A stretch of DNA of 64,000 bases from contig NZ_BMQA01000019.1 in assembly GCF_014647875.1 (NCBI RefSeq), positions 62,001-126,000 on the forward strand, read 5' to 3'. A program made the position numbers and the translations under genes. The DNA comes from Streptomyces brasiliensis (GTDB lineage: Bacteria > Actinomycetota > Actinomycetes > Streptomycetales > Streptomycetaceae). Below, piece by piece: positions 22,936 through 55,892 of this stretch. The notes under the pieces were generated by a model that saw only the letters and a program-made list of their open reading frames with translations, was not told where the DNA came from and ran no database searches. Within the stretch, counting starts at the first letter, position 1. Each line of letters begins with the position of its first letter.

Positions 22936-22947
22936 TAGGACGTCCTA
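22936..22947. promoter_or_regulatory. Palindromic operator upstream of icmF
   Basis: TAGGACGTCCTA is a perfect 12-bp palindrome 44 bp upstream of the icmF ATG. Its size suits a TetR dimer. It differs from the two multi-copy motifs of the window, so icmF and the 3-hydroxyacyl-CoA dehydrogenase may be under separate control. Confidence 0.5.
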
Positions 22948-23071
22948 GTAAATTGCGGTGGCTGATCGTGGTGTGAACAGAAGCACAGTGTGGAGTGAGC
23001 CGGGGCCTCCATTCCGGGTTACGGGGCCGGACAGGCCTTCGCCCTCGGCTCAACCCCTTCCCGAAGCAGGG

Positions 23072-29125: not shown

Positions 29126-29139
29126 ATCAAACGGTTGGT
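29126..29139. promoter_or_regulatory. Operator of the ACCAAnCGnTTGGT family (site B)
   Basis: ATCAAACGGTTGGT matches 11 of 12 fixed positions. It lies 32 bp before the GTG of the VOC gene at 29172. Confidence 0.65.
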
Positions 29140-29171
29140 TGGTAATGGTCGGTGCGCCCCGGGAGGCAGCG

Positions 29172-29801
29172 GTGCCGAAGGTTTTGTCTGAGGCAGTTCC
29201 GGACGCGGTTCCGGAAGCAGTTGGGGACGCGGTCGGGGTCCGTCGGCTCGATCATGTCGCTCTCGCCGTCCGGGACCTCGACCGTGCCTGGGCGATGTTC
29301 GGCGAGACTCTCGGCGGTCGGTTCGTCACCGGCGGGGACAACGACGAGACCGGCATCCGGCTGCTGCACCTGCACCTCGGTGGTTTCAAGATCGAGCTCA
29401 TGCAGCCGCTGCGTGCCGACTCGCTCGTGTCCCACACGCTCGATCGGCGCGGCGAGGGAATGCACCATGTGACCTTCGTGGTGGACGACCTCGGTACGAC
29501 CGTCGACGTCCTTCCGGTCGCGGGCTATCCGCTGACCGGCACGGACCTGTCCAACCCGGTCTGGCGAGAGACGTTCGTCAGACCGTCGGCCACCCAGGGC
29601 GCCCTGGTCCAGTTCGTCGACACCACTCGCGACTGGAGCCAGGGCGTCGACGGAGTCGACCTCGACACCGTGCTGCGGGGCGGCGCGGTGTTCCGCGGTG
29701 CCGTTCCCTGTGTGCGCCGCGCCGCCCAGAGGCCTGCCGATGCCGTTCGCGCAGCTTTTGATGACGTCCCGCAGCGCATCGAGGGGGTGTCTCATGACTG
29801 A
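29172..29801 (+). CDS. VOC family protein (methylmalonyl-CoA epimerase-like)
   Basis: A 209-residue vicinal-oxygen-chelate protein. The GTG at 29172 is chosen because GGGAGG lies 5 bp upstream; an ATG at 29145 has none and sits beside the operator. The first half begins RRLDHVALAVRDL with the metal-binding His, and the second MHHVTFVVDDL; GGFKIELMQPL carries the metal-binding Glu. This resembles methylmalonyl-CoA epimerases, but the surrounding pathway suggests an epimerase or isomerase for another CoA ester. Paralogue at 58873. Its stop overlaps the SDR start. Confidence 0.87.
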   Translation: MPKVLSEAVPDAVPEAVGDAVGVRRLDHVALAVRDLDRAWAMFGETLGGRFVTGGDNDETGIRLLHLHLGGFKIELMQPLRADSLVSHTLDRRGEGMHHVTFVVDDLGTTVDVLPVAGYPLTGTDLSNPVWRETFVRPSATQGALVQFVDTTRDWSQGVDGVDLDTVLRGGAVFRGAVPCVRRAAQRPADAVRAAFDDVPQRIEGVSHD

Positions 29802-30543
29802 AGGTGCCACGGAGACTGAGGTGTTCGCCGGACGGACGGTGGTCGTCACCGGCGCCGGTGGAGGCGTCGGTCAGATCCTGGTGCGCGGCTTCGGCGGGCA
29901 GGGAGCGCGTGTCGTGGCCGTCGACCGCGACACCGCGGCGCTGGACCGTCTGAAGGCGGACACAGACGTCGTGTGCGTGCCGGCCGACGTCTCGAAGGCC
30001 GAGGACGTCAGGCGCGTCGTGGGCGAGGCCGGCGAGGTGGACATCCTGGTCAACAACGCCGGTGTCATCGATCGCCTCGGCATGGCGCACGAGGTGGCCG
30101 TGGAGGAGTGGCACAGACTGCTCGACATCAACCTGACCGGGCCCTTCCTCTTCTGCAACACCGTCCTGCCGGGCATGCTGGAGCGCGGGCGCGGCGTCAT
30201 CGTCAACGTCGCCTCGGTCGCCGGGGTACGCGGAGGCCGCGCCGGGGCGGCGTACACCGTCTCCAAGCATGGTCTCGTCGGGCTGACGAAGAACATCGCC
30301 GCGACCCTGGGGGACCGCGGCATCCGGAGCAACGCCGTGTGCCCTGGATCCATCCAGACGGGTATGCAGGACGTCACCGACGCCTTCCCGTCCGCGCTCG
30401 AGGCGCTCTCGCGCGACAGGCGCAAGCCGGCCCCGGCGCTGCCCGAGGAGATCGCCTCGGTTGTCATGTTCCTCGCGTCGGACGCCGCTGCGCGCATCAA
30501 CGGGGTCGCGCTGCCCGTCGACTCGGGGTCGCTGGCGTTCTGA
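29794..30543 (+). CDS. SDR family oxidoreductase
   Basis: A 249-residue classical SDR starting at ATG 29794, overlapping the VOC stop by 8 bp. TGAGGGVG, NNAG and catalytic YTVSK are all present, with INGVALPVDSG at the end. Expected to oxidise or reduce a hydroxyacyl or cyclic alcohol substrate with NAD(P). Together with the VOC gene it forms a two-gene unit under site B; the molybdoenzyme gene starts 91 bp later and may be read from the same promoter. Confidence 0.89.
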   Translation: MTEGATETEVFAGRTVVVTGAGGGVGQILVRGFGGQGARVVAVDRDTAALDRLKADTDVVCVPADVSKAEDVRRVVGEAGEVDILVNNAGVIDRLGMAHEVAVEEWHRLLDINLTGPFLFCNTVLPGMLERGRGVIVNVASVAGVRGGRAGAAYTVSKHGLVGLTKNIAATLGDRGIRSNAVCPGSIQTGMQDVTDAFPSALEALSRDRRKPAPALPEEIASVVMFLASDAAARINGVALPVDSGSLAF

Positions 30544-30634: not shown

Positions 30635-32884
30635 GTGGCCAAGTTGACCTTTGGCGGAGACGTCAAACGTACCTTCTGCACGCTGTGCCCGCAGCACTGC
30701 GGCATGCTCATCCAGATCGACGAGGACGGCCACCCGATCGCGTTCGACGGTGACCTGCACAACCCCGTCGCCAAGGGGAAGCTGTGCATCAAGGGCACCA
30801 CCGCGATCGAGGTGCACAACCACCCGGACCGGCTCAACCACCCGATGAAGCGGGTCGGCGAACGGGGTGAGGGCAAGTGGGAGCGCATCTCCTGGGAGCA
30901 GGCCCTCGACGAGATCGCCGAGAAGCTCGCCGACATCCGCGACCGTGAGGGACCCGAGGCGCTCGCCACCCTCGGAGGTACGCACAAAACCCCCGGTGAC
31001 TGGGCGAGCTGGCGCTTCGCGTGCGACTTCGGCACCCCGAACTTCGTCAGCCAGGGCCGCAACTGCGGTGTCGGCGAGTACATCGCCGAGGTGTCGGTCT
31101 ACGGCTGGGACACCGTGTACCAGTCGCCGCACCCGGGCGTCACGAAGTGCCTCGTCATCTGGGGCTCCAACCCGGCCGAGTCCTCTCCGCCGTCCTTCGA
31201 GCGGCTCCGGGCGTGCCAGGCGCAGGGTGCCAAGCTGATCGTCGTCGACCCGCGGCGCACCAAGACCGCCGCGCGGGCGGACCTCCACCTCCAGCTGCGT
31301 CCGCGCACGGACGGCGCGCTCGCCCTCGGGTTGATCCATGTCATGATCCGCGACGACATCTACGACAAGGAGTTCGTCGAGCGGTGGTGTCTGGGCTTCG
31401 ACGAGGTGCAGGCCGAGGCCGCGAAGTGGACGCCGGAGCGTACCGAGGAGATCACCGGCGTGCCCGCCGCCGACATCGTCGAGGCCGCGCACATCTATGC
31501 CACGAGCGGTCCGGCCCGCCTCATGTTCGGTGTCGCCGCGACCCAGCTCGGTGAGGGCGCATCCCGTTCCGCCGTCCTCGGCCGGGCCATCCTGCGCGCC
31601 ATCTCGGGCAACCTCGACATCCCCGGTGGTGAGCCACTGGGCAACCCCTACGACAAGACGCACTTCGCCTGGCTCGAGAACATGAACTTCGAGAAGCTGG
31701 TCGACCACCCGCTGCGGACACGTGAGAGCGTCAACGCCCACGAGACCCGGATCACCTCGATCACCGGCTACAAGGCGTTCCGGGAGGCCACTCGGCGGAT
31801 CTACCCCGACGGGCACACCGGCACGGCGTACGTCCTCTTCGCGAGTCAGCCGGCCATCTACCGCGCGGTCGTCGAGCAGGACCCGTACCCGATCCGCGCG
31901 ATCATCGTCCAGTGCGGTGAGCCGTTGCTGTCGATGGGAGCCGGTCAGGCCGCCTACAAGGCCTTCACGAGTCCTGAGCTCGAGCTGCTCGTCGCGATGG
32001 ACATGTGGATGACGCCGACGGCGCAGCTGGCCGACTACGTCCTGCCCGCCGCCGACTTCATGGAGCGGGCGGACCTCAGCGCCCACTGGGGCATCGGCAA
32101 CTTCTTCGTTGTGGGGCAGCAGTCCGCGCAGACGATCGGTGAGCGCCGCAACGACTACGACCTCTGGGCGGGCCTCGGCCGTCGGCTCCTGGACCCCGAC
32201 AACTGGCCCGAGACGGTCGAGGGGATGTTCGACCGGTTCCTCGCTCCGTCGGGCAGGACGTACCGGGAGTGGGCCGACGGTGAGGTCAACCACCACTTCA
32301 CCCGGCCGAAGTGGCGCAAGTACGAGGAGCACGGCTTCGCCACCCCGTCGGGCAAGGTCGAGCTCGTGCCCAGCATGTTCGAGAGGTTCGACATCGATCC
32401 CTCGCCCGTCTACACCGGGCCGCCCTACTCGATCCCGGACGCGCCGGAGGACGAGTACCCGCTCCAGATGATCCCCGGCAGCCGGGTCCGCGAGCTGACC
32501 GCGTCGAACCTGCGGCAGAGCCGACGGCTCAACCGGCTCCACCCCGAGCCGCTCTGTGACATCCACCCGGAGACCGCCGAGCGGTGGGGCATCACCGACG
32601 GCGAGTGGATGGTCATTCAACGGCCGGAGGGCGAGATCCGCCAGCGTGCCCGCTTCGACGCGACGATGCGCAAGGACACCATCAACCCCGACGGGTACTG
32701 GTGGGAGCCGAGCCAGGCGCCCAACGAACCGCACTTGTCGGGTGTCTGGGTCTCGAACGCCAATGCCATCACACCCGGCGACCCGAAGCTCTCGAACTTC
32801 GCGGGGGACCAGCCCCTGCGCGGTGCCCGCTGCCGGATCCGGGCCGCCCAGGCGCCTGTTGCGGTCATGCCGGTGACGCCATGA
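30635..32884 (+). CDS. Molybdopterin oxidoreductase family enzyme, acetylene-hydratase-like
   Basis: A 749-residue DMSO-reductase-superfamily protein with a GTG start after AGGGAGCGG. The N-terminal [4Fe-4S] motif is Cys15-x2-Cys18-x3-Cys22 with Cys51 in LCIKG. NCGVGEY puts Cys144 at the expected metal-ligand position; in acetylene hydratase the tungsten ligand is Cys141. Later motifs: WGSNPAESSP, VVDPRRTKTA (pterin binding) and a C-terminal PGSRVRELTASNLRQS domain. No twin-arginine signal, so it is cytoplasmic. It may hydrate, hydroxylate or oxidise a substrate; redox partners could be FdxA (40913). Its stop overlaps the next SDR. Confidence 0.88.
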   Translation: MAKLTFGGDVKRTFCTLCPQHCGMLIQIDEDGHPIAFDGDLHNPVAKGKLCIKGTTAIEVHNHPDRLNHPMKRVGERGEGKWERISWEQALDEIAEKLADIRDREGPEALATLGGTHKTPGDWASWRFACDFGTPNFVSQGRNCGVGEYIAEVSVYGWDTVYQSPHPGVTKCLVIWGSNPAESSPPSFERLRACQAQGAKLIVVDPRRTKTAARADLHLQLRPRTDGALALGLIHVMIRDDIYDKEFVERWCLGFDEVQAEAAKWTPERTEEITGVPAADIVEAAHIYATSGPARLMFGVAATQLGEGASRSAVLGRAILRAISGNLDIPGGEPLGNPYDKTHFAWLENMNFEKLVDHPLRTRESVNAHETRITSITGYKAFREATRRIYPDGHTGTAYVLFASQPAIYRAVVEQDPYPIRAIIVQCGEPLLSMGAGQAAYKAFTSPELELLVAMDMWMTPTAQLADYVLPAADFMERADLSAHWGIGNFFVVGQQSAQTIGERRNDYDLWAGLGRRLLDPDNWPETVEGMFDRFLAPSGRTYREWADGEVNHHFTRPKWRKYEEHGFATPSGKVELVPSMFERFDIDPSPVYTGPPYSIPDAPEDEYPLQMIPGSRVRELTASNLRQSRRLNRLHPEPLCDIHPETAERWGITDGEWMVIQRPEGEIRQRARFDATMRKDTINPDGYWWEPSQAPNEPHLSGVWVSNANAITPGDPKLSNFAGDQPLRGARCRIRAAQAPVAVMPVTP

Positions 32885-33666
32885 GCGGGTCGGCCGCCGA
32901 GGCGTTCGGCGGGCGTGCGGGCGGGGCTCTGGTCGTCGGGGGCAGCGGTGCCATCGGCGGCGCGGTCGCCGAGCGGCTGGCGGAGATGGGCGCCGACATC
33001 ACCCTCACGTACAGCGGCAGCGCCGAGCGGGCTCACGCCCTCGCGGACCGTCTCGGAGGCCGGGGCCGCGTCGCTCGGGCGGCCAGGATGGACATGGGAG
33101 ACGCCGACCAGGTGCGGGCCGTCGTCGAGGACGCGGTGGACAAGCACGGCGGCCTGCACACCGTGGTCCTGGCCGCGTCGCCGACGAACCACCAGGTCCA
33201 CGTGAGCCGACTCGATCCCGCGCGGTACGCCGAGCAGCTCGCGGTCGACTCGGGCGGCACCTTCCGCGTCGTCTCGGCCGTGCTCCCGACGCTGCGGGAG
33301 CGCCGGGGCTCGGTCGTCGTGGTGAGCACGGTGGCCAACCGCCGGTTCGTCCTGCGGGACGTTCTGTCCTCGGGCCCCAAGGCGGCGAACGAGGCTCTCG
33401 TGCGTGCGGTGGCCGCGGAGGAGGGACGTTTCGGCGTGCGGGCCAACGCGGTCGGTGTGGGCATCCTCGACGAGGGGATGACGCAGGTTCTCGTCGACAG
33501 CGGCGACATCCGACCCGGGGATCTCGAGCACGCACTGACCCGGATACCGCTGCGCAGTTACGGGAAGGCGAGGGACATCGCGGCGGCTGTGGCGTTCCTG
33601 GCCTCCGACGACGCGCGCTACGTCACGGGTCAATGGATCGATGTCGACGGTGGGTACGGATTGTGA
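32881..33666 (+). CDS. Divergent SDR protein lacking the catalytic tyrosine (paralogue of 27967)
   Basis: A 261-residue SDR-fold protein coupled to the molybdoenzyme by a 4-bp overlap. The cofactor loop GGSGAIGG is recognisable. The active-site region DVLSSGPK has Ser163 four residues before Lys167 and no Tyr, as in the paralogue at 27967. Conserved neighbours are AAEEGRFGVRAN and GVGILDEG, plus GKARDIAAAVAFLAS. It is either a non-canonical dehydrogenase or a binding protein. Tight coupling to the molybdoenzyme suggests they act on the same compound. Confidence 0.86.
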   Translation: MSGSAAEAFGGRAGGALVVGGSGAIGGAVAERLAEMGADITLTYSGSAERAHALADRLGGRGRVARAARMDMGDADQVRAVVEDAVDKHGGLHTVVLAASPTNHQVHVSRLDPARYAEQLAVDSGGTFRVVSAVLPTLRERRGSVVVVSTVANRRFVLRDVLSSGPKAANEALVRAVAAEEGRFGVRANAVGVGILDEGMTQVLVDSGDIRPGDLEHALTRIPLRSYGKARDIAAAVAFLASDDARYVTGQWIDVDGGYGL

Positions 33667-33887: not shown

Positions 33888-33931
33888 GTCAGGTCACGTC
33901 GATCACCGTCTTGGCCACCGACCGGGGCTCG
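33888..33931 (-). pseudogene. Remnant of the 3' end of a zinc alcohol dehydrogenase gene
   Basis: These 44 bp match the end of the dehydrogenase gene at 39729-39772 with three mismatches, and encode the same C-terminus (SVAKTVIDVT then stop against SVVKTVIDVT). No more of the gene is present upstream, so it is a fragment left after deletion or recombination. Confidence 0.75.
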
Positions 33932-34135
33932 CGCTGCGCGCTCGGTCAGCGGGGCGACACCATGGTGGAGTTCGTGCACCATCACATGCTGGAGCACCCG
34001 GGCTTGGTCGACGTGATGCGGCGACCGTCATCGTGTGCACGTGGGCCGGCGGCCAGAGTCCGTAGCTGTCCACGGCCCGCTCGGAGGCGGGGAGCACCCC
34101 CTATGGCGTGCTTCGTCGACGATCGGAGTAGGCGC
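33932..34135 (+). pseudogene. Remnant of a VOC-family gene (relative of 60652)
   Basis: The stretch encodes CALGQRGDTMVEFVHHH, closely matching CALGQWGDIMVEFVHHH of the intact VOC gene at 60652, then VMRR, and after a degenerate part MACFVDD against VACFVDD. The nucleotide match is also clear. It lacks both ends and the frame is broken between the two blocks. It directly abuts the dehydrogenase remnant, which is on the opposite strand. Confidence 0.75.
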
Positions 34136-34405
34136 CGGCCCCGGCGGCGGGTGGCCCGGGGCGGCGGCGCACATCACCCCGGAGGCGCATGCGATCGATG
34201 ACACCAGTACGACCTTGCCATCCACGGCTGCCGTCCGGTGGGTCTTCGGCGACCGGGACCCTGCTGCCTGATCAGGGTGACCCGGGATGTTCGAGGGGCC
34301 ACCTCAACGCTTCGCGCACTGGGCCTGGTGTACGTGCGCCCCGCGCGTGTGGTGAACAGAACGGCAAGAGACGTGTGACCGGGGACTGTTGCCCGAAAGC
34401 ATTAA

Positions 34406-34419
34406 GACAAACGGTTGGT
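34406..34419. promoter_or_regulatory. Operator of the ACCAAnCGnTTGGT family (site C)
   Basis: GACAAACGGTTGGT matches 10 of 12 fixed positions, and nine bases of core are identical to site B. It lies 145 bp before the aldehyde dehydrogenase ATG, further than the other sites. Confidence 0.55.
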
Positions 34420-34563
34420 TGACAGAAGTAGCGGCCGGCTGGAATTCTCGGAGCACCCCATCGATCGATGGGACATCCTTGTCAACGCCAGAGTCGCAGT
34501 GCCCGACCTGTCTCGTGCAGGAGCGTCGGACCGTCTCTGGCAGTGCATGCCGGGAGGAACCAG

Positions 34564-36027
34564 ATGTCCGACCCGATGACTACCACCACGCCCCGGCTCA
34601 AGAGCTACGACAAGCTCTTCATCGGTGGCAAGTGGGTAGAACCCAGCAGCGACAAGAAGATTCAGGTCATCTCGCCGAGCACCGAGGAACTGATCGCTAC
34701 GGTCCCCGAGGCTCGGGAGGCGGACGTCGACGCGGCCGTTGCTGCGGCGCGCAAGGCGTTCGACGAAGGCCCGTGGCCGCGGATGAGCCCGGCCGAGCGC
34801 GCGACGATCCTCGCCAGAGTCGGCGAAGAGGTCGGTAAGCGGCTCGAGGACATGATCACCGCCTTCACGGAGGAGATCGGTGCCCCAACGGGATTGAGCC
34901 GCGGCTTCCTCGGCTTCGCGACTCAGAACTGGCAGGACGGGGCAACCCTGCACGAGCGGTTCTCGTTCGAGGAAGAGCGCACGTGGGACGGTGGGCACGG
35001 CAAGATCGTGCGGGAGCCCGTCGGTGTCGTGGCGACGATCATTCCCTGGAACGGCCCGGTCGGCACTGCCTCGTTGAAGATCGCGCCGGCGCTCGCCGCC
35101 GGATGCACCGTCGTGCTCAAGCCGGCACCCGAGGGACCGATCGGCACCAACCTGCTCGCCGAGGCTCTGGAGGCTGCCGGGCTGCCCGAGGGCGTCATCA
35201 GCGTCCTGCCGGCGGGCCGGGAAGTGGGCGAGTACCTCGTCCGGCATCCGGATGTCGACAAGGTCACCTTCACGGGGAGCACAGCAGCCGGGCGTCGCGT
35301 CATGGCGCTCTGCGCGGACCGCATCGCCCGCGTCACGCTGGAGCTCGGGGGCAAGTCCGCCGGCATCATCGCCGACGACATTCCGCTCGAGGACGTCATG
35401 CCGAGCCTGGGATTCGCGGGCATTCTCAACTCCGGCCAGGTCTGCGCGGCGATCACCCGTATCCTCGTGCCCCGCGAGCGGCAGGACGAGCTGCTCGCCG
35501 CGCTCAAGGCATCCTTCGCACAGGTCAAGGTTGGTGACCCGCACGACCCCGAGACGATGCTCGGCCCCCTCGTTTCCGAGCGGCAGCGCGATCGCGTCGA
35601 GGAGTACATCCGATTGGGGCGGGAGGAGGGGGCCCGTGTCGTGTTCGGCGGAGGCCGTCCCGAGGAGCGCGACAAGGGCTGGTACATCGAGCCGACGATC
35701 TTCGCAGATGTCAGCAACAATATGCGCATCGCGCAGGAGGAGATCTTCGGCCCGGTCGTTTGCGTGATTCCTTTCGACACCATCGACGAAGCGGTGCGGA
35801 TCGCCAACGACTCGATGTACGGCCTGTCCGGAGCCGTATACGCCAAGAACGAGAAGCTCGCCGAGGGCATCGCTCGTCGAATTCGCACGGGGCAGATCTC
35901 CATCAACTCCTGGGGCATGTGTGTAGTCCAGCCCTTCGGCGGCTTCAAGCAGTCAGGTCTTGGCCGTGAAGGTGGCGTGGAGGGCCTCGAGCCATTTCTG
36001 GAGACCAAGCTGATCCAGTACGCCTGA
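34564..36027 (+). CDS. Aldehyde dehydrogenase
   Basis: A 487-residue NAD(P)-dependent aldehyde dehydrogenase. The ATG follows GGGAGGAAC; an upstream in-frame start reads through the leader and is rejected. Catalytic Glu260 is in LELGGKSAG and the nucleophile Cys294 in SGQVCAAITR; TIIPWNGPV and FTGSTAAGRRV bind cofactor. The C-terminus has QPFGGFKQSGLGREGG. Typical length for the betaine-aldehyde/retinal dehydrogenase class. It would convert an aldehyde made by the alcohol dehydrogenases at 38527 and 39731 into an acid for the CoA ligases. Controlled probably through site C. Confidence 0.93.
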   Translation: MSDPMTTTTPRLKSYDKLFIGGKWVEPSSDKKIQVISPSTEELIATVPEAREADVDAAVAAARKAFDEGPWPRMSPAERATILARVGEEVGKRLEDMITAFTEEIGAPTGLSRGFLGFATQNWQDGATLHERFSFEEERTWDGGHGKIVREPVGVVATIIPWNGPVGTASLKIAPALAAGCTVVLKPAPEGPIGTNLLAEALEAAGLPEGVISVLPAGREVGEYLVRHPDVDKVTFTGSTAAGRRVMALCADRIARVTLELGGKSAGIIADDIPLEDVMPSLGFAGILNSGQVCAAITRILVPRERQDELLAALKASFAQVKVGDPHDPETMLGPLVSERQRDRVEEYIRLGREEGARVVFGGGRPEERDKGWYIEPTIFADVSNNMRIAQEEIFGPVVCVIPFDTIDEAVRIANDSMYGLSGAVYAKNEKLAEGIARRIRTGQISINSWGMCVVQPFGGFKQSGLGREGGVEGLEPFLETKLIQYA

Positions 36028-36520
36028 GGCGTGTTATGCAGTGCCTCGGTCGGCCATCCCTGGAGTCAGCAGGGTAGGTGCACAAGGACGCAACGGCGCG
36101 AGGGGAGCAGTTCCCACAAGGGATGCGCGGGGCGGTGGGCCGGCCCCAGTTGGCCGATGACCTCTTTCTCATGCCGGCTGTCCTCAGGGACCCCGATGCT
36201 CACACCGCGCAGGTGCCGGCCAGGATGAGATCGAGGACCGCGGCGTCGCTGCGGGCGGGATCCGGGCCGCGCCGGTATCGGCACCGCACCCTCTTTGAGC
36301 GCTGACTTCGTCACCTCCTCCCGCCTGTGTCGATCCACACAATGCGCCTGAGAATCTCTGGGGACGCGCGAACCGTTGCGTGCGCGCTCCCGGCACTCCG
36401 CCGGCCAGGGCAGCCCCAGGCCACAGCCGATGAACAGTTTCTCTCGGCCGAATCCCGAGGCCCATTCCCAGCAACGGCCGGGCGGCGAGTCTCGGTCATT
36501 TCCCAGACCAGGAGAACGCA
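36028..36520. other. 493-bp intergenic stretch without a supported gene
   Basis: Lies between the aldehyde dehydrogenase and the lipoprotein gene. Several short frames exist on both strands but none has a good start signal, family motif or clear similarity to other genes here. The leader before 36521 ends with an AGGAGAA Shine-Dalgarno sequence. No operator of either family was found. Confidence 0.5.
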
Positions 36521-37741
36521 ATGACGCGTGCTTTGCGGGCCGGCGTGGCCCTTTCACTGACAACGGCCGTGCTGGCCGGCTGCGCTCAAGCGCACGGAGA
36601 GGCCGGCGCCGCCGGATCGATCAAGGTCATGAACATCACGGCCTTCGGCACCGAACTGCAGAACTTCCCCGACGTTCAGGACGGGACGGTAGCGGCCGTC
36701 AAGGCGATCAATGCCCACGGCGGTGTGCACGGGCGTCGACTGGAGCTCATCACCTGCAACACCAACTCGGACCCCAACACCGCGCTCAATTGCGCGCGCA
36801 AGGCCGTGAGGGAGAACGTCGTGGTCGTCCTCGGCTATCTCGACAACTTCACGACACAGACCCTGCCGCTCTTGGAGCAGGCAGGCATCCCGAACATCGG
36901 CCTGGAGTCCCTCGGCAACCCGATCGACTACACCTCGAAGTCGTCCTTCCCCTTCGACGGAGGCACAGCCGCGGCCTCCCACATCGCGCCGTTCGGTCTC
37001 AAGTCCTCCGGCGCCACCACCATCGTGGCGGTCTCGGCTGACGTGCCGTCCGCCATCGAGAACGCCAAGCTCGTCAAGAAGGGCGCGATCAAGTCGGGTC
37101 TGAAGTTCGGCGGGATCGTCAAGGTGCCGACGAGCGGTGTCAGCGAGTACTCCTCCTATGCGCAGCAGATCAAGGAGATGGGCGGGGACGGCGTCTACTT
37201 CAACACCACGGTGGGTCAGTTGCAAGGGGTCATCAAGGCGGCCCGTGCCATGGGCCTGCAGCGGGCCACCTGGTCCTACCAAGCCGATGTGTTCGGCGCG
37301 AACGAGGCAAGTGGGTGCGGAGCCCTGTGCGACGGCCTGCTCCTCGTCAGCCCGACGCCGGCGTACAGTGACGACAAGAGCGACGGCATCAAGAAGTTCA
37401 ACGCCGACATGGACGCCGCTGGTTTCAGCAAGCCCGGTCAGAAGCGGCCCGGCGCGATCAACGCATGGATGTCGGTGTACGCCTTCAAGGATCTGCTGGA
37501 GGGCCAGGGCAGCAATCCCGCGATCACCGGCGCCATCACAGCGAAGAGCGTGACTGAGGCCCTCGATGCCGCACGGAACGTCAGCATCCAAGGCATCACG
37601 GAGTGGAGCCCGGGCTCCAGCGGCCCCGCTGCCTTCCCACGCGTGCGAGCCAACACGATCTATCGATTCCTCGAGGTCAAGGGCGGGGACGTCGCGCCGA
37701 CGAAGCTTCCGGACGTCGAGCTGGTGAAGGTGCTCGGCTGA
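36521..37741 (+). CDS. Solitary ABC-type substrate-binding lipoprotein (branched-chain amino acid type)
   Basis: A 406-residue exported protein. The first 20 residues form a signal peptide (MTRALR, then hydrophobic ALSLTTAVLAG) with lipobox LAGC and lipidated Cys21. The mature part is a type I periplasmic-binding fold of the LivJ kind: NFPDVQDGTVAAVKAINAHG, then ITCNTNSDPN and later RANTIYRFLEVKGGD. No permease or ATPase gene of the Liv system is near, so it must pair with transport proteins encoded elsewhere, or act as a sensor. It may bind the substrate or a breakdown product of the catabolic cluster. Confidence 0.88.
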   Translation: MTRALRAGVALSLTTAVLAGCAQAHGEAGAAGSIKVMNITAFGTELQNFPDVQDGTVAAVKAINAHGGVHGRRLELITCNTNSDPNTALNCARKAVRENVVVVLGYLDNFTTQTLPLLEQAGIPNIGLESLGNPIDYTSKSSFPFDGGTAAASHIAPFGLKSSGATTIVAVSADVPSAIENAKLVKKGAIKSGLKFGGIVKVPTSGVSEYSSYAQQIKEMGGDGVYFNTTVGQLQGVIKAARAMGLQRATWSYQADVFGANEASGCGALCDGLLLVSPTPAYSDDKSDGIKKFNADMDAAGFSKPGQKRPGAINAWMSVYAFKDLLEGQGSNPAITGAITAKSVTEALDAARNVSIQGITEWSPGSSGPAAFPRVRANTIYRFLEVKGGDVAPTKLPDVELVKVLG

Positions 37742-37801
37742 CAGCGGCAACCAGCCCGAGACCGCGGACGTCGGGTGATGGGGTGGCCCGTGACGCACCG
37801 G

Positions 37802-37847
37802 AGCTCCTTGCTCCGCAGGGTGTAACCAACCTGCGGAGCAAGGAGCT
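37802..37847 (+). terminator. Hairpin terminator after lipoprotein gene
   Basis: A perfect 18-bp stem with a 10-nt loop begins 60 bp after the stop and is followed by TTTG. Typical intrinsic terminator for this GC range. Confidence 0.75.
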
Positions 37848-37971
37848 TTGTGGTCAGCTGTCGTGCACTCTCGACGTTCCTGCGGACGCGGATTCCTGCT
37901 GGGGAAACTCATCGCTGTCCGAAGCAGTGAACCAGGCAGCCCTGGAGTGCCGCGGCCTCTTATGACCAACC

Positions 37972-38292
37972 CGCCGTGTTCCTGGTGTGGTTCGCCAAGG
38001 GGGAGGCGTTCACCCAGCTCGGTGCGCACTTCGGAGTGTCTACGACACCGCCTGGCGCTACGTCACCGAGGCGGTGCAGGTGCTGGCCCCGCTCGCGGCC
38101 CCATCCTGGAGCAGGCGGTGGCCGCCGCCGGCGAAGCGCCACTCGGTGCTGCGGCATCCTCATCCCCCGGCACGACGGCTGGGAGAAGGGGCCGATGCCG
38201 CCCTGGCCAAGCTCCGCGCCGCAGTCGAGCGGCCCTTCGCCACCCTGAAGCGCCGACGGGTGCTGGACGTGCTGCGCATAGCGCGCCGCTGA
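37972..38292 (+). pseudogene. Broken IS5-type transposase gene
   Basis: Two short pieces in different frames match transposase patterns common in Streptomyces: the N-terminal HTH region LVWFAKGEAFTQLGAHFGVS with WRYVTEAVQVLAPL in another frame, and a C-terminal piece ALAKLRAAVERPFATLKR. The middle with the catalytic DDE acids is missing and frames are shifted, so it is inactive. IS5-like is my best family guess from these pieces. Confidence 0.65.
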
Positions 38293-38367
38293 TGCATCGG
38301 GGATGGCGGCCGGCGTCGGCCGAGGCACTCGACGGCGTGGCGCGAGACGTCGAGCGTGGCGACAAAG

Positions 38368-38446
38368 CTGACCGACGTGAAGCCCCTGGTTGCTACGGGC
38401 GTGATCTTGGCAGACTCTGTCCTACCAGGGGCTTCACGTCTGTCAG
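38368..38446. repeat. Imperfect 23-bp inverted repeat next to transposase debris
   Basis: Arms at 38368-38390 and 38424-38446 are complementary with one mismatch, including a perfect 17-bp core (38374-38390 and 38424-38440), and are separated by 33 bp. It could be an end of a mobile element, a small non-coding insertion, or a terminator for the minus-strand dehydrogenase ending at 38527. Confidence 0.6.
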
Positions 38447-38526
38447 TGGCCAGGCCCCGCACGTCCGATGCGTACCGATCGGGGCGGTTCAGGCCACTTC
38501 GTGGAGATCGCTGCACGGGGAAAACC

Positions 38527-39645
38527 TCAGTCGTAGACGATGACCCCGCGGATGTTGCTGCCCTCAGCCATGTGCTTGTAGGCCTCGTTGATTTGCTCGA
38601 GCTTGTAGGTTCGGGTGACCATCTCGTCGAGCTTGAGGGCGCCCCGCTTGTACATTCCGAGGAGGCGGGGGACGTCCACGGCCGGCTGGCAGCCGCCGTA
38701 GATCCCGCCCCGGATCTGCTGTTCGAGCAGGACGAAGCCGAGCACGCCGAGCTTGGCGTCGGTCTGGGTCTCCGCCGAGACGCCGCCGATGGCCAGGACG
38801 CCGCCCTTGGAGACGTGATTCAGGATCGGCTGTATGAGGTCGGCGTCGACGACACCCATGGTGAGGATCGCCCGGTCCACGCCGACTCCGCGGGTGAGCT
38901 CCTGCACCAGCGGCTGGGCCTCCTCGAGGTCGGCGGCGACGTGGGTGGCGCCGAACCGCGGGGCCTGTTGCCGCTTGAACTCGGCCGGGTCGACGACGAT
39001 GATCTCGCGTGCGCCGGCCATCCTGGCTCCTTGGACCGCGCTCATCCCGACACCGCCCACACCGATGACCATGACGACGTCATCCGGTTGGACGCCAGCG
39101 ATGTTGACGGCGGTGCCCCAGCCCGTCGGCACCGCGCACGCGGTGATGGCGGCCGCCTCGAACGGGATGTCCTTGTCGATCTTGATGAGCGACTCGACCG
39201 GGCTGACGATGTACTCGCTGAAGGTGCCGAGGAAGGTCATCGGGCCGACCGGGTCGCCGCCGGCGGTGTGGATCCGGTGAGTGCCGTCGAGCATGTACCC
39301 GGACATCAGCTCCGCGCCTCGGTCGCAGAGGTTGCCGCGGCCCTTGACGCACCATGCGCACGTGCCGCACGACGGCATGAACGTCGTCGTGACGTGGTCG
39401 CCGACCGCGAGGCTCGTGACGCCGGGGCCCACCTTCTCTACGATGCCGGCGCCCTCGTGGCCCCCGAGGAAGGGGTAGGACTCCCGGCTCTGGTCACCGA
39501 AGGACAGGTGCGCGTCCGAGTGGCACAGGCCCGCCGCCTTGAGCCGGACGAGCGCCTCGCCCTCCTTGGGGTCGTCGAGGATGAGGTCCTCGACGACCCA
39601 CTCGGTCGGCCCCGGCCCCCAGACCAGTGCTCCGCGTGATTTCAT
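38527..39645 (-). CDS. Zinc alcohol dehydrogenase, NDMA-dependent type
   Basis: A 372-residue medium-chain dehydrogenase. Catalytic zinc ligands are at Cys41 (GLCHSD) and His63-Glu64 (GGHEGAG); the structural zinc site is Cys93, Cys96, Cys99, Cys107. The cofactor loop is GVGGVGMSA. The segment FMPSCGTCAWCVKGRGNLCD and the tail MYKRGALKLDEMVTRTYKLE are close to nicotinoprotein NDMA-dependent alcohol dehydrogenases of actinomycetes, which keep NAD(H) bound. The ATG has AAGGGAG upstream. It likely oxidises a primary alcohol to the aldehyde. Confidence 0.9.
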   Translation of the reverse strand: MKSRGALVWGPGPTEWVVEDLILDDPKEGEALVRLKAAGLCHSDAHLSFGDQSRESYPFLGGHEGAGIVEKVGPGVTSLAVGDHVTTTFMPSCGTCAWCVKGRGNLCDRGAELMSGYMLDGTHRIHTAGGDPVGPMTFLGTFSEYIVSPVESLIKIDKDIPFEAAAITACAVPTGWGTAVNIAGVQPDDVVMVIGVGGVGMSAVQGARMAGAREIIVVDPAEFKRQQAPRFGATHVAADLEEAQPLVQELTRGVGVDRAILTMGVVDADLIQPILNHVSKGGVLAIGGVSAETQTDAKLGVLGFVLLEQQIRGGIYGGCQPAVDVPRLLGMYKRGALKLDEMVTRTYKLEQINEAYKHMAEGSNIRGVIVYD

Positions 39646-39730
39646 GCTTCTCCCTTCTCCCGGGGCGACGTTGCCCCGTGCCTCGCCGTGGTGCGGTCAG
39701 TTGATCTTGAACCTGTACTGCAGGAACCAG

Positions 39731-40912: not shown

Positions 40913-41242
40913 TCAGTCGGTAACGGTCACCGGCGCGGGAAGGGCGGCCACCGCGGGATGGTCCCTTTCGGTGGGGCCGAGGGAGGCCGCGCCGCCCGGA
41001 CTGCCCAGCTCGGCGAAGAACTCGACGTTGATCGAGGCGTAGTGGCTGAAGTCCTCAGGCACGTCGTCCTCGAAGAAGATCGCCTCGACGGGGCACACCG
41101 GCTCGCAGGCGCCGCAGTCGACGCACTCGTCCGGATGGATGTAGAGCATCCGCGGGCCCTCGTAGATGCAGTCAACGGGGCACTCGTCGACGCAAGCTCG
41201 ATCCTTGACGTCGACACACGGTTGGGCGATGACGTAGGTCAT
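40913..41242 (-). CDS. fdxA: Seven-iron ferredoxin (FdxA type)
   Basis: A 109-residue ferredoxin. The cysteine pattern is Cys9, Cys17, Cys21-Pro, then Cys40-x2-Cys43-x2-Cys46-x3-Cys50-Pro, which is the [3Fe-4S][4Fe-4S] arrangement of actinobacterial FdxA, with ECPVDCIYEG and the YIHPDECVDCGACEP block. It should carry low-potential electrons, for example from KorAB (54021-56869) or for the molybdoenzyme at 30635. A site D operator 24 bp upstream places it in the same regulon as those genes. Other ferredoxin in the window: 51936. Confidence 0.93.
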   Translation of the reverse strand: MTYVIAQPCVDVKDRACVDECPVDCIYEGPRMLYIHPDECVDCGACEPVCPVEAIFFEDDVPEDFSHYASINVEFFAELGSPGGAASLGPTERDHPAVAALPAPVTVTD

Positions 41243-41265: not shown

Positions 41266-41279
41266 AGCAAACAGTTGGT
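41266..41279. promoter_or_regulatory. Operator of the ACCAAnCGnTTGGT family (site D)
   Basis: AGCAAACAGTTGGT matches 10 of 12 fixed positions. It lies 24 bp upstream of the ferredoxin start on the minus strand, next to a TATATT-like -10 element at 41282-41287 (minus). Confidence 0.55.
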
Positions 41280-42947: not shown

Positions 42948-43425
42948 GGTCCCCGCGGCGGCGTCTGCCGCGCCCCAGCTGCTCGCGGCATACGCCTGGC
43001 TCATCGACGACCGTCGTTGGACCGACTTCGGCGAGGTCTTCACCGATGACGTCGTCGCGGACTACGAGGCGTTCACATGCCGTGGCGCCGACGCGCTCGG
43101 CAGTCGGATGGAGTCCATCCATGCCGGCCTCGACGCCACTCAGCACCTCGTCGGTTCGGTGCTCGTCACCGACCGGGCCGGCGGCGTCCGCGTGCGCAGC
43201 CACGTGCAGGCGACCCTCGTCAGGCGCGGTCTTCCGGGGGGCAGCAGCCTCACCGTCGGCGCGCGCTACGACGATCGGATCGTCCGGGTCGCCGGTGGTT
43301 GGCGGATCGCGGAACGGCGCACGCGGGGGCTGTGGACGCGGGGCAACCGGGACATTCTTCCGTGGATGGCCGATCGAGGGCGCTTCGAGCCGTCCGACTC
43401 TCCTCAGAAGGGGCGACACACATGA
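42940..43425 (+). CDS. SnoaL/NTF2-like protein
   Basis: A 161-residue protein of the NTF2-like (SnoaL_4) cone fold. The GTG at 42940 overlaps the VOC stop by 8 bp. Features: QLLAAYAWLIDDRRWTDFGE near the N-terminus, ADYEAFTCRGAD, TQHLVGSVLVTDR (a His often catalytic in this family), and the final strand GGWRIAERRTRGLW. Members include ketosteroid isomerases, dehydratases and small-ring cyclases. Here an isomerase or hydratase role is possible; not determined. The stop overlaps the TetR ATG. Confidence 0.84.
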   Translation: MTEVPAAASAAPQLLAAYAWLIDDRRWTDFGEVFTDDVVADYEAFTCRGADALGSRMESIHAGLDATQHLVGSVLVTDRAGGVRVRSHVQATLVRRGLPGGSSLTVGARYDDRIVRVAGGWRIAERRTRGLWTRGNRDILPWMADRGRFEPSDSPQKGRHT

Positions 43426-44114
43426 CCGCACCCAAGCGAGGACGTCCGCGTCGCGGTCCGGACCCTGAGCGCTTCCACGAGATCGTCGATGCCGCTGCGC
43501 AGATCTTCCATCGGAAGGGCTACAGCGCGACGAGCATCCAGGACATCGCCGAGGCCGTCGGCGTGCTCAAGGGGAGTCTGTACCACTACGTGAAGTCCAA
43601 GGAGGACTTCCTCTACGCGATCATCGACGGTGCGACCCAGGTTGCGCTGCAGGAGATCCAAGCGGTGGCCCGGATGGAGGCCGGCCCGGTCGACAAGCTG
43701 ACTGCCTTCGTCGGCACGCACGTTCGCTTCGCCACCAGTCACCTCACCGCCTACTCGATCCGTCTTCGGGAGATGCGGGAGCTCGGTCAGGAGCGGCGTG
43801 AGAAGATCCAGGCCGACGGAGCCGCTTACAACAAGGTCATGCGGGACGTCCTCGTCCAGGGGCAGGAACAGGGCGTCTTCGACGCGGGCATGGACGTCGA
43901 CCTCATGACCACGATCGCTCTCGGCCAGATGAACGCGCTCACCCGGTGGTACCGGGAGGACGGCCCGTACACGCCCGAGCAGCTGGCCGACGTCTTTGCG
44001 CGCACCGTGGTGAGCGCCGTCATCTCCGATCGGGGCCTTCAAGGCGAGGGTGTCGAGGGGTTGCGGCGCAGCATCCGGGCGGCCCCTCGGGCAGACGTGG
44101 CCGCCCAGGCCTGA
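43422..44114 (+). CDS. TetR family regulator, candidate master regulator of the 27-62 kb operons
   Basis: A 230-residue TetR protein. The N-terminus is basic (MTAPKRGRPRRGPDPER), followed by an HTH with SIQDIAEAVGVLKGSLYHYV. The C-terminal part is all helical with TSHLTAYSIRLREMREL. ATG 43422 overlaps the SnoaL-like stop. It is the only regulator between 18.6 kb and the window end, and is co-transcribed with genes behind site E. It is the leading candidate for the protein that binds ACCAAnCGnTTGGT. The ligand is probably a CoA ester of the pathway (inference from related TetR regulators). Confidence 0.88.
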   Translation: MTAPKRGRPRRGPDPERFHEIVDAAAQIFHRKGYSATSIQDIAEAVGVLKGSLYHYVKSKEDFLYAIIDGATQVALQEIQAVARMEAGPVDKLTAFVGTHVRFATSHLTAYSIRLREMRELGQERREKIQADGAAYNKVMRDVLVQGQEQGVFDAGMDVDLMTTIALGQMNALTRWYREDGPYTPEQLADVFARTVVSAVISDRGLQGEGVEGLRRSIRAAPRADVAAQA

Positions 44115-44205: not shown

Positions 44206-44219
44206 AACAATCGATTGGT
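44206..44219. promoter_or_regulatory. Operator of the ACCAAnCGnTTGGT family (site F)
   Basis: AACAATCGATTGGT matches 11 of 12 fixed positions. It lies between the promoter and the AAGGAG Shine-Dalgarno sequence (44223-44228) of the MaoC-like gene, a position suited to repression. Confidence 0.68.
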
Positions 44220-44232
44220 TGAAAGGAGCAGC

Positions 44233-44670
44233 ATGACCGAAGAAGAACTCGGCGCCATCGTGGGCCGGCCGCTCCCTGGTGGGGAGTACGTCATCGAGCC
44301 GTACGTGGACTGGCTCCTCAACGACGTCGTCGGCGGAGTGGTCGACGGCCACTGGGCGCACCCCCTCTTCGCCTACATGGCGACGGCGCGGGGCAAGGGA
44401 GTCACCTGGGACGAAGTCTTCGAGATCTGCGGTGCCACCGCGGCGGACGGCCCGATGTTCGGCGAGCACGAGACGGAGCTCCTGCGTCCGCTCGAGGTCG
44501 GCGAGAAGGTGAAGGTCTCGGGCCGGTTCACCTCGGCCGTGCGCAAGGACGGCAGGCGCACCGGCGTCTTCGACGTCATCGGCTTCGAGGTCGAGCTGCG
44601 AGGCGCCGACGGCGCGCTGGCGGCCCGCACGCGTAACTCCATCGTCTTCCCCAGGAGGTCAGCGGCATGA
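44233..44670 (+). CDS. MaoC-like hot-dog protein, non-catalytic half (FAS1-type N-terminal domain)
   Basis: A 145-residue single hot-dog protein starting at the ATG 5 bp after AAGGAG. The blocks HPLFAYMATARGKGVTWDEV and GPMFGEHETELLRPLEVGEK are typical of the N-terminal, non-catalytic half of MaoC/HTD-type enoyl-CoA hydratases; the hydratase D-x4-H motif is missing. It overlaps the gene for the catalytic half by 4 bp, so the two probably form a heteromer, as ChsH1/ChsH2 and HadAB do. Role: hydration of a bulky 2-enoyl-CoA. Confidence 0.85.
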   Translation: MTEEELGAIVGRPLPGGEYVIEPYVDWLLNDVVGGVVDGHWAHPLFAYMATARGKGVTWDEVFEICGATAADGPMFGEHETELLRPLEVGEKVKVSGRFTSAVRKDGRRTGVFDVIGFEVELRGADGALAARTRNSIVFPRRSAA

Positions 44671-45092
44671 CGGTCCGTCCCGGCGACGCGATCCCCTCCT
44701 GGGAGATCGCGGACGTGTCCCGAGAGAAGATGAAGACGATGGCCGCGCTGCTGGCCGACTCGAACCCGATCCACTTCGACCTCGAGTCGGTGCGCAAGCT
44801 CGGCATGGGGAACCGGCCCATCAACCAGGGCCCGAACAACCTCGCCTACCTGATGAACATGCTGGCGGTCTGGACGGGTGGCCACGAACACCTGCGCAAG
44901 ATCACGGTGCGCTTCCGCAGCAACGTGCTCGGCGACGACCACGTCATCGCCCGAGGCACCGTCACCGACGTCCGCGAGAACGACGGCCGTGTCCTCGCCG
45001 ACTGCGAGGTCGAGCTCCTCGTCGAGGGGCGGGACACGGCACTGAGCGGTACGGCCACCGTCGACGTCACGCACATGACCGAACGGCCCTGA
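44667..45092 (+). CDS. MaoC-like enoyl-CoA hydratase, catalytic half
   Basis: A 141-residue hot-dog protein. The hydratase-2 motif LLADSNPIHFDLE supplies Asp31 and His36, with the following GMGNRPINQGPNNLAYL matching the substrate-binding loop of MaoC hydratases. It should add water to a 2-enoyl-CoA giving the 3R-hydroxyacyl-CoA. The partner at 44233 lacks these residues. The thiolase gene begins 48 bp later in the same operon under site F. Confidence 0.88.
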   Translation: MTVRPGDAIPSWEIADVSREKMKTMAALLADSNPIHFDLESVRKLGMGNRPINQGPNNLAYLMNMLAVWTGGHEHLRKITVRFRSNVLGDDHVIARGTVTDVRENDGRVLADCEVELLVEGRDTALSGTATVDVTHMTERP

Positions 45093-46285: not shown

Positions 46286-47056
46286 ATGGAACTCACCCAC
46301 ACGGTCGCCGTCGTCACCGGCGGCGCGTCGGGGATCGGGGAGGGCGTCGTACGGATGCTCGTCGCCCATGGCGGTTCGGCTGCCATCTTCGACCTGCCCG
46401 GCAGCAAGGGGGCGGAACTCGCCCAGGAGCTCGGGCCGTCGGTCGCGTTCTTCCCCCTCGACATCACGGTCCCGCAGCAGGTGGAGACGGCCGTCTCCGA
46501 GGTCGTCGAGCGCTTCGGGCGGATCGACGTCCTTGTCAACAGCGCCGGTATCAGCCCGGCGAGCCGCGTCGTCGCCAAGGACGGCAGCCTCTTCCCACTC
46601 GACCTCTACCGCAGGGGTATTGAGGTCAACCTCATCGCCGCGTTCGACGTCCTGCGCAATGTCGCCGGTGTGATGGCCCGCAACGAGCCGAGCGACGAGG
46701 GGGAGCGGGGACTCGTCGTCAACATCGGATCCATCGCGGCCTTCGAGGGGCAGGTCGGTCAGGCGTCCTACTCCGCCGGCAAGGGCGGGCTGGTCGCGAT
46801 GACCCTGCCGCTCGCCCGGGACCTCGCGTCCCATGGCGTGCGGGTCATGACCATCTGCCCCGGCACCATCGACACGCCGATGGTCCGGCAGGCCAGCCAG
46901 GAGATCCGCGACTACCTGCGCGACGCCAATGTCTTCCCCAAGCGGCTCGGCGCCGCCGAGGACATCGCGGCGGTGGTCCGCACCTGTATCGAGACGACCT
47001 ACCTCAACGGTGAGGTGATCCGCGTCGACGCGGCCGTCCGGATGGCGCCGCGCTGA
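46286..47056 (+). CDS. SDR family oxidoreductase (3-hydroxyacyl-CoA dehydrogenase-like)
   Basis: A 256-residue classical SDR. TGGASGIG near residue 12, NSAG, and catalytic YSAGK. The segment ASYSAGKGGLVAMTLPLARDL is typical of 17-beta-HSD10-like 3-hydroxyacyl-CoA dehydrogenases, so it may follow the hydratase above. ATG 46286 is 2 bp after the thiolase stop; GTG 46280 is an alternative start that overlaps it. The stop abuts the DUF35 gene. Confidence 0.89.
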   Translation: MELTHTVAVVTGGASGIGEGVVRMLVAHGGSAAIFDLPGSKGAELAQELGPSVAFFPLDITVPQQVETAVSEVVERFGRIDVLVNSAGISPASRVVAKDGSLFPLDLYRRGIEVNLIAAFDVLRNVAGVMARNEPSDEGERGLVVNIGSIAAFEGQVGQASYSAGKGGLVAMTLPLARDLASHGVRVMTICPGTIDTPMVRQASQEIRDYLRDANVFPKRLGAAEDIAAVVRTCIETTYLNGEVIRVDAAVRMAPR

Positions 47057-47085
47057 TGCCCCAACGCGAGAACGAGGTGGAGAGC

Positions 47086-47463
47086 ATGTCTTCGGCCACA
47101 GCCGACCCGCGGCCCCGCGCCGTGGTGTCCGGTGGCGCGGTCACGGTCGCCGGATGGCGGTGCCGCGACTGCGCCCACCCGATGACGCACGAAGTTCTGC
47201 GGTGCCCGGTCTGCCGCGGCGGGACGGGGGCGGCGGCCTTCTCCCCCCAGGGCGAGGTCTTCGCGTCGACGTGCCTGCGCATCCGGGTACCCGGTCATGA
47301 GCCGCCGTTCGCGATGGCCTACCTGCTCCTTGACGACGGACCCCGGGTCCTCGTCCACACCGAGGGCGAACAGCCGCTCCGGGTCGGCAGCCGGGCCGTC
47401 ATCACGTCGATCACTGCCGACGGCGACCTGGTCGCCGCGGGCTGCGAGCAGGAGGAATCATGA
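47086..47463 (+). CDS. Zn-ribbon/OB-fold protein (DUF35 type)
   Basis: About 125 residues. A rubredoxin-like zinc ribbon (WRCRDCAHPM and RCPVCRGG, four Cys) is followed by an OB-fold. ATG 47086 has GGTGGAG upstream; an ATG at 47056, coupled to the SDR stop, is an alternative that adds ten residues. DUF35 proteins partner thiolase-fold enzymes: as ChsH2-DUF35 does with the aldolase Ltp2 in steroid side-chain removal. The 4-bp overlap with the thiolase-fold gene fits such a complex. Confidence 0.87.
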   Translation: MSSATADPRPRAVVSGGAVTVAGWRCRDCAHPMTHEVLRCPVCRGGTGAAAFSPQGEVFASTCLRIRVPGHEPPFAMAYLLLDDGPRVLVHTEGEQPLRVGSRAVITSITADGDLVAAGCEQEES

Positions 47464-52699: not shown

Positions 52700-52713
52700 A
52701 CCAAACGTTTGGT
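52700..52713. promoter_or_regulatory. Operator of the ACCAAnCGnTTGGT family (site G)
   Basis: ACCAAACGTTTGGT is a perfect 14-bp palindrome and matches the consensus completely. It serves the minus-strand VOC-ferredoxin operon, 31 bp upstream of its ATG. Confidence 0.8.
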
Positions 52714-52784: not shown

Positions 52785-52798
52785 AACAATCGTTTGGT
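52785..52798. promoter_or_regulatory. Operator of the ACCAAnCGnTTGGT family (site H)
   Basis: AACAATCGTTTGGT matches 11 of 12 fixed positions. It lies 18 bp before the acyl-CoA dehydrogenase ATG, across the divergent region from site G, 71 bp away. Confidence 0.72.
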
Positions 52799-53980: not shown

Positions 53981-54020
53981 GCAGCGGCTCCAGTGTCCGA
54001 CCGAGCTCAAGGAGGAGCCC

Positions 54021-55888
<1,868 letters not shown>

Positions 55889-55892
<4 letters not shown>

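Follow-up and report, generated by a model that had tools for sequence, protein, structure and literature searches.

What does a molybdo/tungsto-enzyme that resembles acetylene hydratase (AH) do in the catabolic cluster of an aerobic actinomycete? The question is raised by a gene in a 64,000-nucleotide stretch of Streptomyces brasiliensis DNA (contig NZ_BMQA01000019.1, positions 62,001 to 126,000; the whole stretch is called the window, and its numbering is used throughout), which encodes MopB, a protein of the bis-molybdopterin guanine dinucleotide (bis-MGD) type. We tentatively propose that MopB represents a new bis-MGD catalytic subfamily, so far found in few actinomycetes, which would carry out a ferredoxin-fed step, reductive or hydrolytic, whose substrate is a polar ring acid or a branched acid; the reaction would be of undescribed type, independent of O2, and would proceed in the aerobic cytosol, in a pathway that also employs a P450. 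The gene and two of its sites are as follows.

30635..32884, + strand: MopB, bis-MGD molybdo/tungsto-enzyme of 749 residues, GTG start, no leader seen; assigned by Pfam, structure match, trees and alignment
30677..30700, + strand: codons of CTLCPQHC, the N-terminal [4Fe-4S] cysteine motif, with Pro19 at the position of AH Asp13
31064..31066, + strand: codon of Cys144, which aligns with the metal-ligand Cys141 of the AH structure 2e7z

An earlier interpretation of this DNA (the sequence-only reading) had quoted this open reading frame (ORF) and three motifs, all of which are present exactly, as C15TLCPQHC22, L50CIKG54 and N143CGVGEY149, the last including Cys144, and its assignment of this cysteine as a metal ligand agrees with the alignment. 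The ORF is codon-like, with a third-position GC content (GC3) of 0.92, within the range of the neighbouring genes, and it is not a chance frame, since copies 98% and 84% identical occur in two named genomes (Streptomyces carpinensis and Prauserella flavalba, respectively); it is a real gene. The Pfam domains Molybdop_Fe4S4, Molybdopterin and Molydop_binding, which belong to catalytic subunits of the DMSO-reductase family, all scored above their cut-offs. With just 14 residues ahead of the first Fe-S cysteine, no leader is seen, consistent with the cytosolic location that had been suggested.

Among solved structures, the best match of MopB was AH of Pelobacter/Syntrophotalea acetylenica (2e7z, E 3e-103, full length over residues 11-730), and the next ones, FdhF of CO2 reductase (3e-55, more exactly 2.7e-55) and thiosulfate reductase (6e-52), matched piecewise only. 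MopB shares with FdhF (formate dehydrogenase H) and the thiosulfate reductase PhsA the bis-MGD family and the N-terminal [4Fe-4S] motif, but differs in that its matches to them are piecewise (E 6e-46 to 3e-55) and the NCBIfam cut-offs are missed. The top NCBIfam name was Fdh-alpha (E 7.8e-78), which would favour a formate dehydrogenase, a nitrate reductase of the NasC/NasA type or some other ordinary enzyme of assimilation or respiration; however, its score was 262 bits against a cut-off of 666, NasC reached 228 bits against 1100, every cut-off among the best 25 of 27 matches was missed widely, and Fdh-alpha is likewise the top name, likewise below cut-off, for the relatives L009, L010 and L020.

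Two trees were compared, a maximum-likelihood tree of 31 sequences and a second tree of 36 sequences with ten rows excluded beforehand; their outgroup rows comprised L003 and L005, which pass formate dehydrogenase cut-offs, and L002, L028 and L029, for which NasC is the top match at a score under its cut-off. In both trees the window protein and its five orthologues formed one clade (100/100, with a stem of 0.89 changes per column in the 31-sequence tree), the AH clade (2e7z, a Rhodococcus opacus protein, L011 and L017) was separate from the six orthologues with equal support (100/100), and the formate-dehydrogenase-type and NasC-like rows fell outside the superclade that holds MopB and AH. 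As both clades are separate and the outgroup stands apart, MopB is kin of AH that lies outside the AH clade, and is neither a formate dehydrogenase nor NasC. Grouping with formate dehydrogenases or assimilatory nitrate reductases, which the sequence-only reading had raised against its own view, was thus not observed, and such an identity, which the conserved position of MopB in a catabolic cluster also argues against, was rejected on curated scores and tree position as barely probable. In the 31-sequence tree the window clade was sister to L010 and L016 (95/90). Judged by these alignments and trees, the six orthologues form a new subfamily of their own within a superclade that holds AH and dehydroxylase-like relatives.

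According to the literature, this superclade is functionally diverse (PMC7028382, PMC9516567); sulfur transfer is known near the clade, and an ergothioneine synthase module is reported to be 27% identical to AH (PMC9516567). Such diversity would allow another bis-MGD reaction for MopB, for instance transhydroxylation or C-S bond chemistry, but the Pfam scan found no desulfurase domain in MopB, and the match to pyrogallol hydroxytransferase (4v4c) reached only 1e-11 over residues 81-290, which makes this alternative improbable.

To compare active sites, all 46 rows were aligned to 2e7z, and the expected letter was returned at all 11 of the 2e7z positions checked. In 2e7z numbering, Cys9, Cys12, Cys16, Cys46, Lys48, Cys141, Trp472 and Arg606 are kept in all six orthologues, and AH Asp13 is Pro in all six. 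The hydrophobic pocket of AH, which comprises Ile14, Ile113, Met140, Ile142, Trp179, Trp293 and Trp472, retains only Trp472 in the orthologues, with Ile14 replaced by Gln, Ile113 by His, Met140 by Asn, Ile142 by Gly and Trp293 by Phe in 6/6, and Trp179 without a counterpart. The AH-clade rows, in contrast, keep Asp13, Trp179 and Trp293 in 4/4 (Trp472 is Ser in L017, and Arg606 is Lys in R. opacus), and outside that clade an Asp at position 13 occurs in 1 of the 42 other rows (L014). MopB is 32.5% identical to 2e7z, a value that rises to 43-51% for the three other rows of the AH clade. According to a 2025 review, Asp13 is specific to the AH subfamily and its change to Ala abolishes activity (PMC12096430). 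The active site therefore differs from that of AH, and MopB probably catalyses another reaction; as read from the alignment, its pocket would be larger and polar.

The resemblance to AH claimed by the sequence-only reading thus stands in part: AH is the nearest solved structure, and the two share the family, a full-length alignment, the [4Fe-4S] cysteine motif, Lys48, the Cys141 ligand, Trp472 and Arg606, with no dedicated Fe-S subunit detected next to the gene, whereas a functional AH is not supported. A true AH whose acetaldehyde is oxidised by an adjacent aldehyde dehydrogenase (ALDH) could draw on the similarity to 2e7z, on an ALDH 1.6 kb downstream of MopB in the window and on ALDH relatives (47-48%) in the four Prauserella-family stretches. 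However, these relatives lie 26-29 kb from MopB, and S. carpinensis lacks the ALDH-carrying segment at this place and shows no ALDH match in its 110-kb stretch, so the ALDH is doubtful as a conserved neighbour.

33941..39729: segment with ALDH, binding protein and zinc-dependent alcohol dehydrogenase (Zn-ADH), absent at this place in S. carpinensis

With Asp13, Trp179 and Trp293 missing and MopB outside the AH clade, the true-AH explanation is hardly credible and was rejected on Asp13 and tree position; acetylene hydration by MopB appears very unlikely. Separately, the segment is flanked by 87% identical copies (33888-33940 and 39730-39782), a trace of insertion or rearrangement.

A different candidate for an aerobic AH was encountered on a megaplasmid of R. 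opacus DSM 44186 (L022:14998-17358, NZ_CP082159.1; protein WP_120661552.1), a strain that presumably belongs to the isolates obtained on acetylene by Rosner et al. (1997). Its protein matches 2e7z at E 5e-173 with 43% identity and keeps Asp13, Ile14, Ile113, Trp179, Trp293 and Trp472, and fdxA, moeZ and a molybdenum cofactor guanylyltransferase gene lie within ~14 kb downstream. Like the window MopB, it is an AH relative of an aerobic actinomycete and has fdxA and Mo-cofactor genes nearby, but it differs in belonging to the AH clade and in retaining Asp13 and the three Trp residues; the two proteins are 34% identical. A 2021 mBio paper presents R. opacus as an acetylenotroph that is aerobic and whose enzyme depends on Mo, reports that the acetylene hydratases of that study are similar by BLAST to molybdopterin proteins of R. 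opacus among others, and states that no acetylene hydratase from an aerobe had been characterised (PMC7858054).

Could MopB nevertheless be a non-redox hydratase whose substrate is larger and polar, be it an alkyne, an alkene or an enol-type compound, its metal staying M(IV) and His117 serving as base in place of Asp13? That its nearest solved relative is a hydratase, that Cys141, Lys48, Trp472 and Arg606 are kept, and that a search for one Cys motif brought up no dedicated Fe-S subunit, just as none turned up around L011 and L017 of the AH clade (the Rhodococcus stretch has FdxA), would suit such an enzyme. Against it stand the replacement by Pro in 6/6 of the Asp13 reported as essential for hydration (PMC12096430), the replacement of most of the hydrophobic pocket, and the short-chain dehydrogenase/reductase (SDR) that overlaps the MopB stop codon.

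32881..33666, + strand: coupled SDR overlapping the MopB stop (ATGA); a longer ORF is listed from 32584

In all six orthologues this SDR has Ser instead of the catalytic Tyr four residues before the catalytic Lys (K-4), and the usual catalytic Ser is Thr. Its paralogue at 27967-28737 (about 47% identical) has the same Thr and also Ser at K-4, whereas the four other window SDRs compared all have Tyr there. Because the Tyr usually needed for oxidising an alcohol product is absent in 6/6, a role of the coupled SDR as a normal alcohol dehydrogenase is unlikely, and a simple hydrate-then-oxidise model is weakened. On balance, we regard a hydratase as unlikely.

Catechol dehydroxylases (Dadh, Hcdh, Dodh and the Streptomyces CC-1065 enzyme), which catalyse reductive catechol dehydroxylation, are described as the closest characterised kin of AH in a paper that also cites a knock-out of the CC-1065 enzyme (PMC7028382). 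The window-clade stretch GGTHKTPGDW resembles GGTTRTDDW of L010-type relatives, and the underlying GT x (R/K) motif is present in 27/46 rows (the six of the window clade and 21 others, many of them near-copies) and in 0/4 AH-clade rows. We infer a link between this motif, which is GTHK in the window clade, and dehydroxylation; MopB shares it with relatives taken as dehydroxylase-like. Two differences stand out: dehydroxylase-like relatives mostly have His at position 13 where MopB has Pro, and catechol dehydroxylases are reported to have an Fe-S partner subunit (PMC11887054), whereas none was found beside MopB.

A ferredoxin-fed reduction or dehydroxylation, as an early step on an imported organic acid, is the reading that we lean towards, short of firm confidence, because of the polar pocket, the motif common to dehydroxylase-like relatives, and the link with the following ferredoxin and its reductase, both matched in the five other clusters.

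40913..41242, - strand: ferredoxin, FdxA-like
50734..51921, - strand: ferredoxin reductase (FdR; Pyr_redox_2 and Reductase_C)
48574..49806, + strand: cytochrome P450, likely second client of FdR/FdxA

MopB would be a cytosolic bis-MGD Mo (or W) enzyme with one N-terminal [4Fe-4S] cluster and Cys144 as metal ligand, for which low-potential chemistry is possible. It may act early on the imported acid, as the gene order MopB-SDR-DctP-DctM (TRAP transporter) observed in P. flavalba and G1055 would suggest. The substrate would bind in a pocket lined by Gln20, His117 and Asn143, which replace the hydrophobic ring of AH; FdxA and its reductase would regenerate Mo(IV)/W(IV) by way of the [4Fe-4S] cluster; the metal would remove or reduce either an oxygen function or a C=C bond in conjugation, and His117/Lys118 would serve as acid-base residues; and the coupled SDR may handle or bind the product. 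Family, aligned ligand Cys, cluster motif, gene order, common palindrome (described below) and conservation are read from sequence, and the metal, location, electron donor, direction and substrate are predictions.

Several observations weigh against a ferredoxin-fed reduction or dehydroxylation. In the 36-sequence tree, the place of the window clade among the superclade lineages had bootstrap values of 55-79, and its join with L016 carried a warning of long-branch attraction. The dehydroxylase link draws on literature and on relatives taken as dehydroxylase-like, in trees without a named catechol dehydroxylase. A structure model built from three sequences had a mean predicted local distance difference test (pLDDT) of 32.3 and was not used, so the pocket residues come from the alignment. 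An Fe-S partner gene was found in 3/5 dehydroxylase-like stretches (one Cys motif searched), and MopB differs from these: within window 20-60 kb the one Cys-motif ORF is the 109-residue FdxA, 8 kb off on the other strand. FdxA and FdR may serve only the P450, and in G1055 FdxA lies between a ferredoxin reductase and an alcohol dehydrogenase (ADH), so another client of FdxA besides MopB is plausible among these neighbours. Finally, the cofactor gene moaA is far from MopB, at ~34 kb in the S. carpinensis stretch and ~40 kb in the window's genome (G000:C19:134763-135758, ~8.8 kb past the window end). The region nevertheless carries an extra MoaA copy, because each of the six genomes has at least one further MoaA elsewhere.

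The catabolic setting of MopB, as claimed by the sequence-only reading, recurs in all six genomes. When 100-110 kb around each of the five other MopB copies was compared with the window, a common set of genes was found, namely MopB, the coupled SDR, FdxA, ferredoxin reductase, a hydrolase, VOC proteins, a TetR regulator, a small gene with a MaoC protein, a thiolase, an OB-fold protein with an SCP2/BbsB-type thiolase, the P450, SDRs (SDR 46046 lacks a match in G1173), an acyl-CoA dehydrogenase (ACAD) and an acyl-CoA ligase; the SDR and ligase matches may be paralogues. DctP, DctM and a MoaA are present in 4/4 Prauserella-family stretches. The further window genes are as follows.

29145..29801, + strand: VOC / Glyoxalase_4 protein resembling methylmalonyl-CoA epimerase, with an inferred start (the listed ORF begins at 29049); presumably opens the MopB operon
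29698..30543, + strand: SDR between the VOC gene and MopB
43077..44114, + strand: TetR-family regulator, presumed palindrome binder
44215..45092, + strand: pair of small genes that overlap, of which the second encodes a MaoC-type protein
47056..48581, + strand: OB-fold protein (ChsH2_C match just below cut-off) and SCP2/BbsB-type thiolase
52817..53980, + strand: ACAD, 80-96% identical in the other five clusters
53889..56869, + strand: KorA/KorB-type 2-oxoacid:ferredoxin oxidoreductase (KorAB), matched in S. carpinensis

Taken together, the cluster looks like one that imports a branched or cyclic acid, activates it with CoA and degrades it by beta-oxidation, assisted by a P450. The P450, KorAB, VOC, old yellow enzyme (OYE) and SCP2-thiolase genes prompted us to consider a pathway for steroids, estrogens or isoflavones, and no substrate could be supported; no paper on this cluster was found in the literature covered, from which subscription papers were mostly absent. 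The catabolic setting, together with Prauserella-family uptake genes in the same run as MopB and a ferredoxin with a common palindrome, would also fit an O2-independent hydroxylase or dehydrogenase that acts on a C-H or ring position, in the direction of ethylbenzene or steroid C25 dehydrogenase, and passes electrons to FdxA. In those enzymes the metal is bound by Asp, a leader is present, and the catalytic subunit is accompanied by Fe-S and heme subunits. MopB, in contrast to the type II ethylbenzene dehydrogenase, has Cys144 in place of the Asp, its score against NCBIfam EbdA (ethylbenzene dehydrogenase) is 92 bits for a cut-off of 2000, no Fe-S or heme subunits were seen among the genes scanned, and O2-dependent hydroxylation is already available to an aerobe whose cluster includes a P450, all of which renders this explanation rather unlikely.

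We also observed a fused B12-binding, MeaB GTPase and methylmalonyl-CoA-mutase protein (IcmF-like) at window 19661-23053, beside an OYE/dienoyl-CoA-reductase-like protein; the fusion was matched in S. carpinensis and not in the four Prauserella-family stretches.

The cluster genes are further connected by the palindrome ACCAAWCGWTTGGT, of which these copies lie before genes discussed here.

29126..29139, + strand: operator-like palindrome, 2 mismatches to ACCAAWCGWTTGGT, upstream of VOC-SDR-MopB-SDR
41266..41279, + strand: weak operator-like site, 3 mismatches, upstream of FdxA
44206..44219, + strand: operator-like palindrome, 1 mismatch, upstream of the MaoC/thiolase/P450 run
52700..52713, + strand: operator-like palindrome, exact, between VOC 52121 (- strand) and ACAD 52817 (+ strand), a divergent promoter
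52785..52798, + strand: operator-like palindrome, 1 mismatch, upstream of ACAD-KorAB

At up to 3 mismatches the window contains 8 sites compared with 2.55 expected, and 1 of 100 shuffles reached 8; this count is not independent, since the pattern was derived from palindromes seen in the window. The five other stretches are related to the window, and their copies were not used in making the pattern: each contains two exact copies, and none occurred in five composition shuffles of each. In 4/4 Prauserella-family clusters the inferred MopB start is preceded, at a distance of 21-27 bp, by an exact copy, and the S. carpinensis copy ahead of the MopB operon deviates by 2 mismatches. The palindrome may thus be an operator bound by the TetR protein, and the MopB cluster is a probable TetR-type regulon for uptake and degradation of an organic acid. 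For the common regulation of MopB with FdxA and KorAB that the sequence-only reading had claimed, these sites give support within the window, weakly so for FdxA. KorAB, however, is 95% identical in the S. carpinensis stretch and has no match in the 100-kb stretches around MopB in any of the four Prauserella-family genomes, and was therefore rejected as a conserved electron source.

How widespread is this subfamily? Orthologues are rare, being found in two Streptomyces-type and four Prauserella-family genomes, with MopB 98% identical to the window copy in S. carpinensis and 81-84% in the Prauserella-family copies. A genus-wide sample (E 1e-80) yielded 1/392 genomes, the window's own only; a class-wide sample of 394 genomes (E 1e-60) yielded the window's own and two with a different 38-39% relative; and a phylum-wide sample of 296 genomes (E 1e-80) gave 8 matches including the window's own, the other seven being 32-41% relatives. 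A scan of named genomes returned two loci, in S. carpinensis and P. flavalba, and 4/249 genomes of the P. flavalba family (P. flavalba included) and 3/377 of its order, all three already found, carried an orthologue. Distant relatives (33-41%) are common in one family of the phylum (54/119 genomes at E 1e-105). Collectively, MopB is real, rare, conserved and probably regulated.

Two further arrangements of distant MopB proteins were seen. The locus L065 of genome G054 has a divergent MopB pair ~5.5 kb apart, of 968 residues (CYFCHANCG) and 770 residues (CHYCGYCC), and similar pairs of MopB matches recur in other genomes of the family of G054. On a plasmid of Rhizobium sp. CB3090 (L031:4639-11308), a distant MopB stands in a run of ALDH, ferredoxin, FAD/NAD(P) protein, MopB and MoaA.

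To our knowledge, few reactions have been characterised in the superclade of AH and catechol dehydroxylases, and these come mostly from anaerobes. MopB, as a conserved and probably regulated member with an extra MoaA in its neighbourhood, would show the chemistry of the superclade in an aerobic catabolic pathway of actinomycetes. The compact operon, comprising MopB and its SDR, with transporter genes of its own in four hosts, makes this testable.

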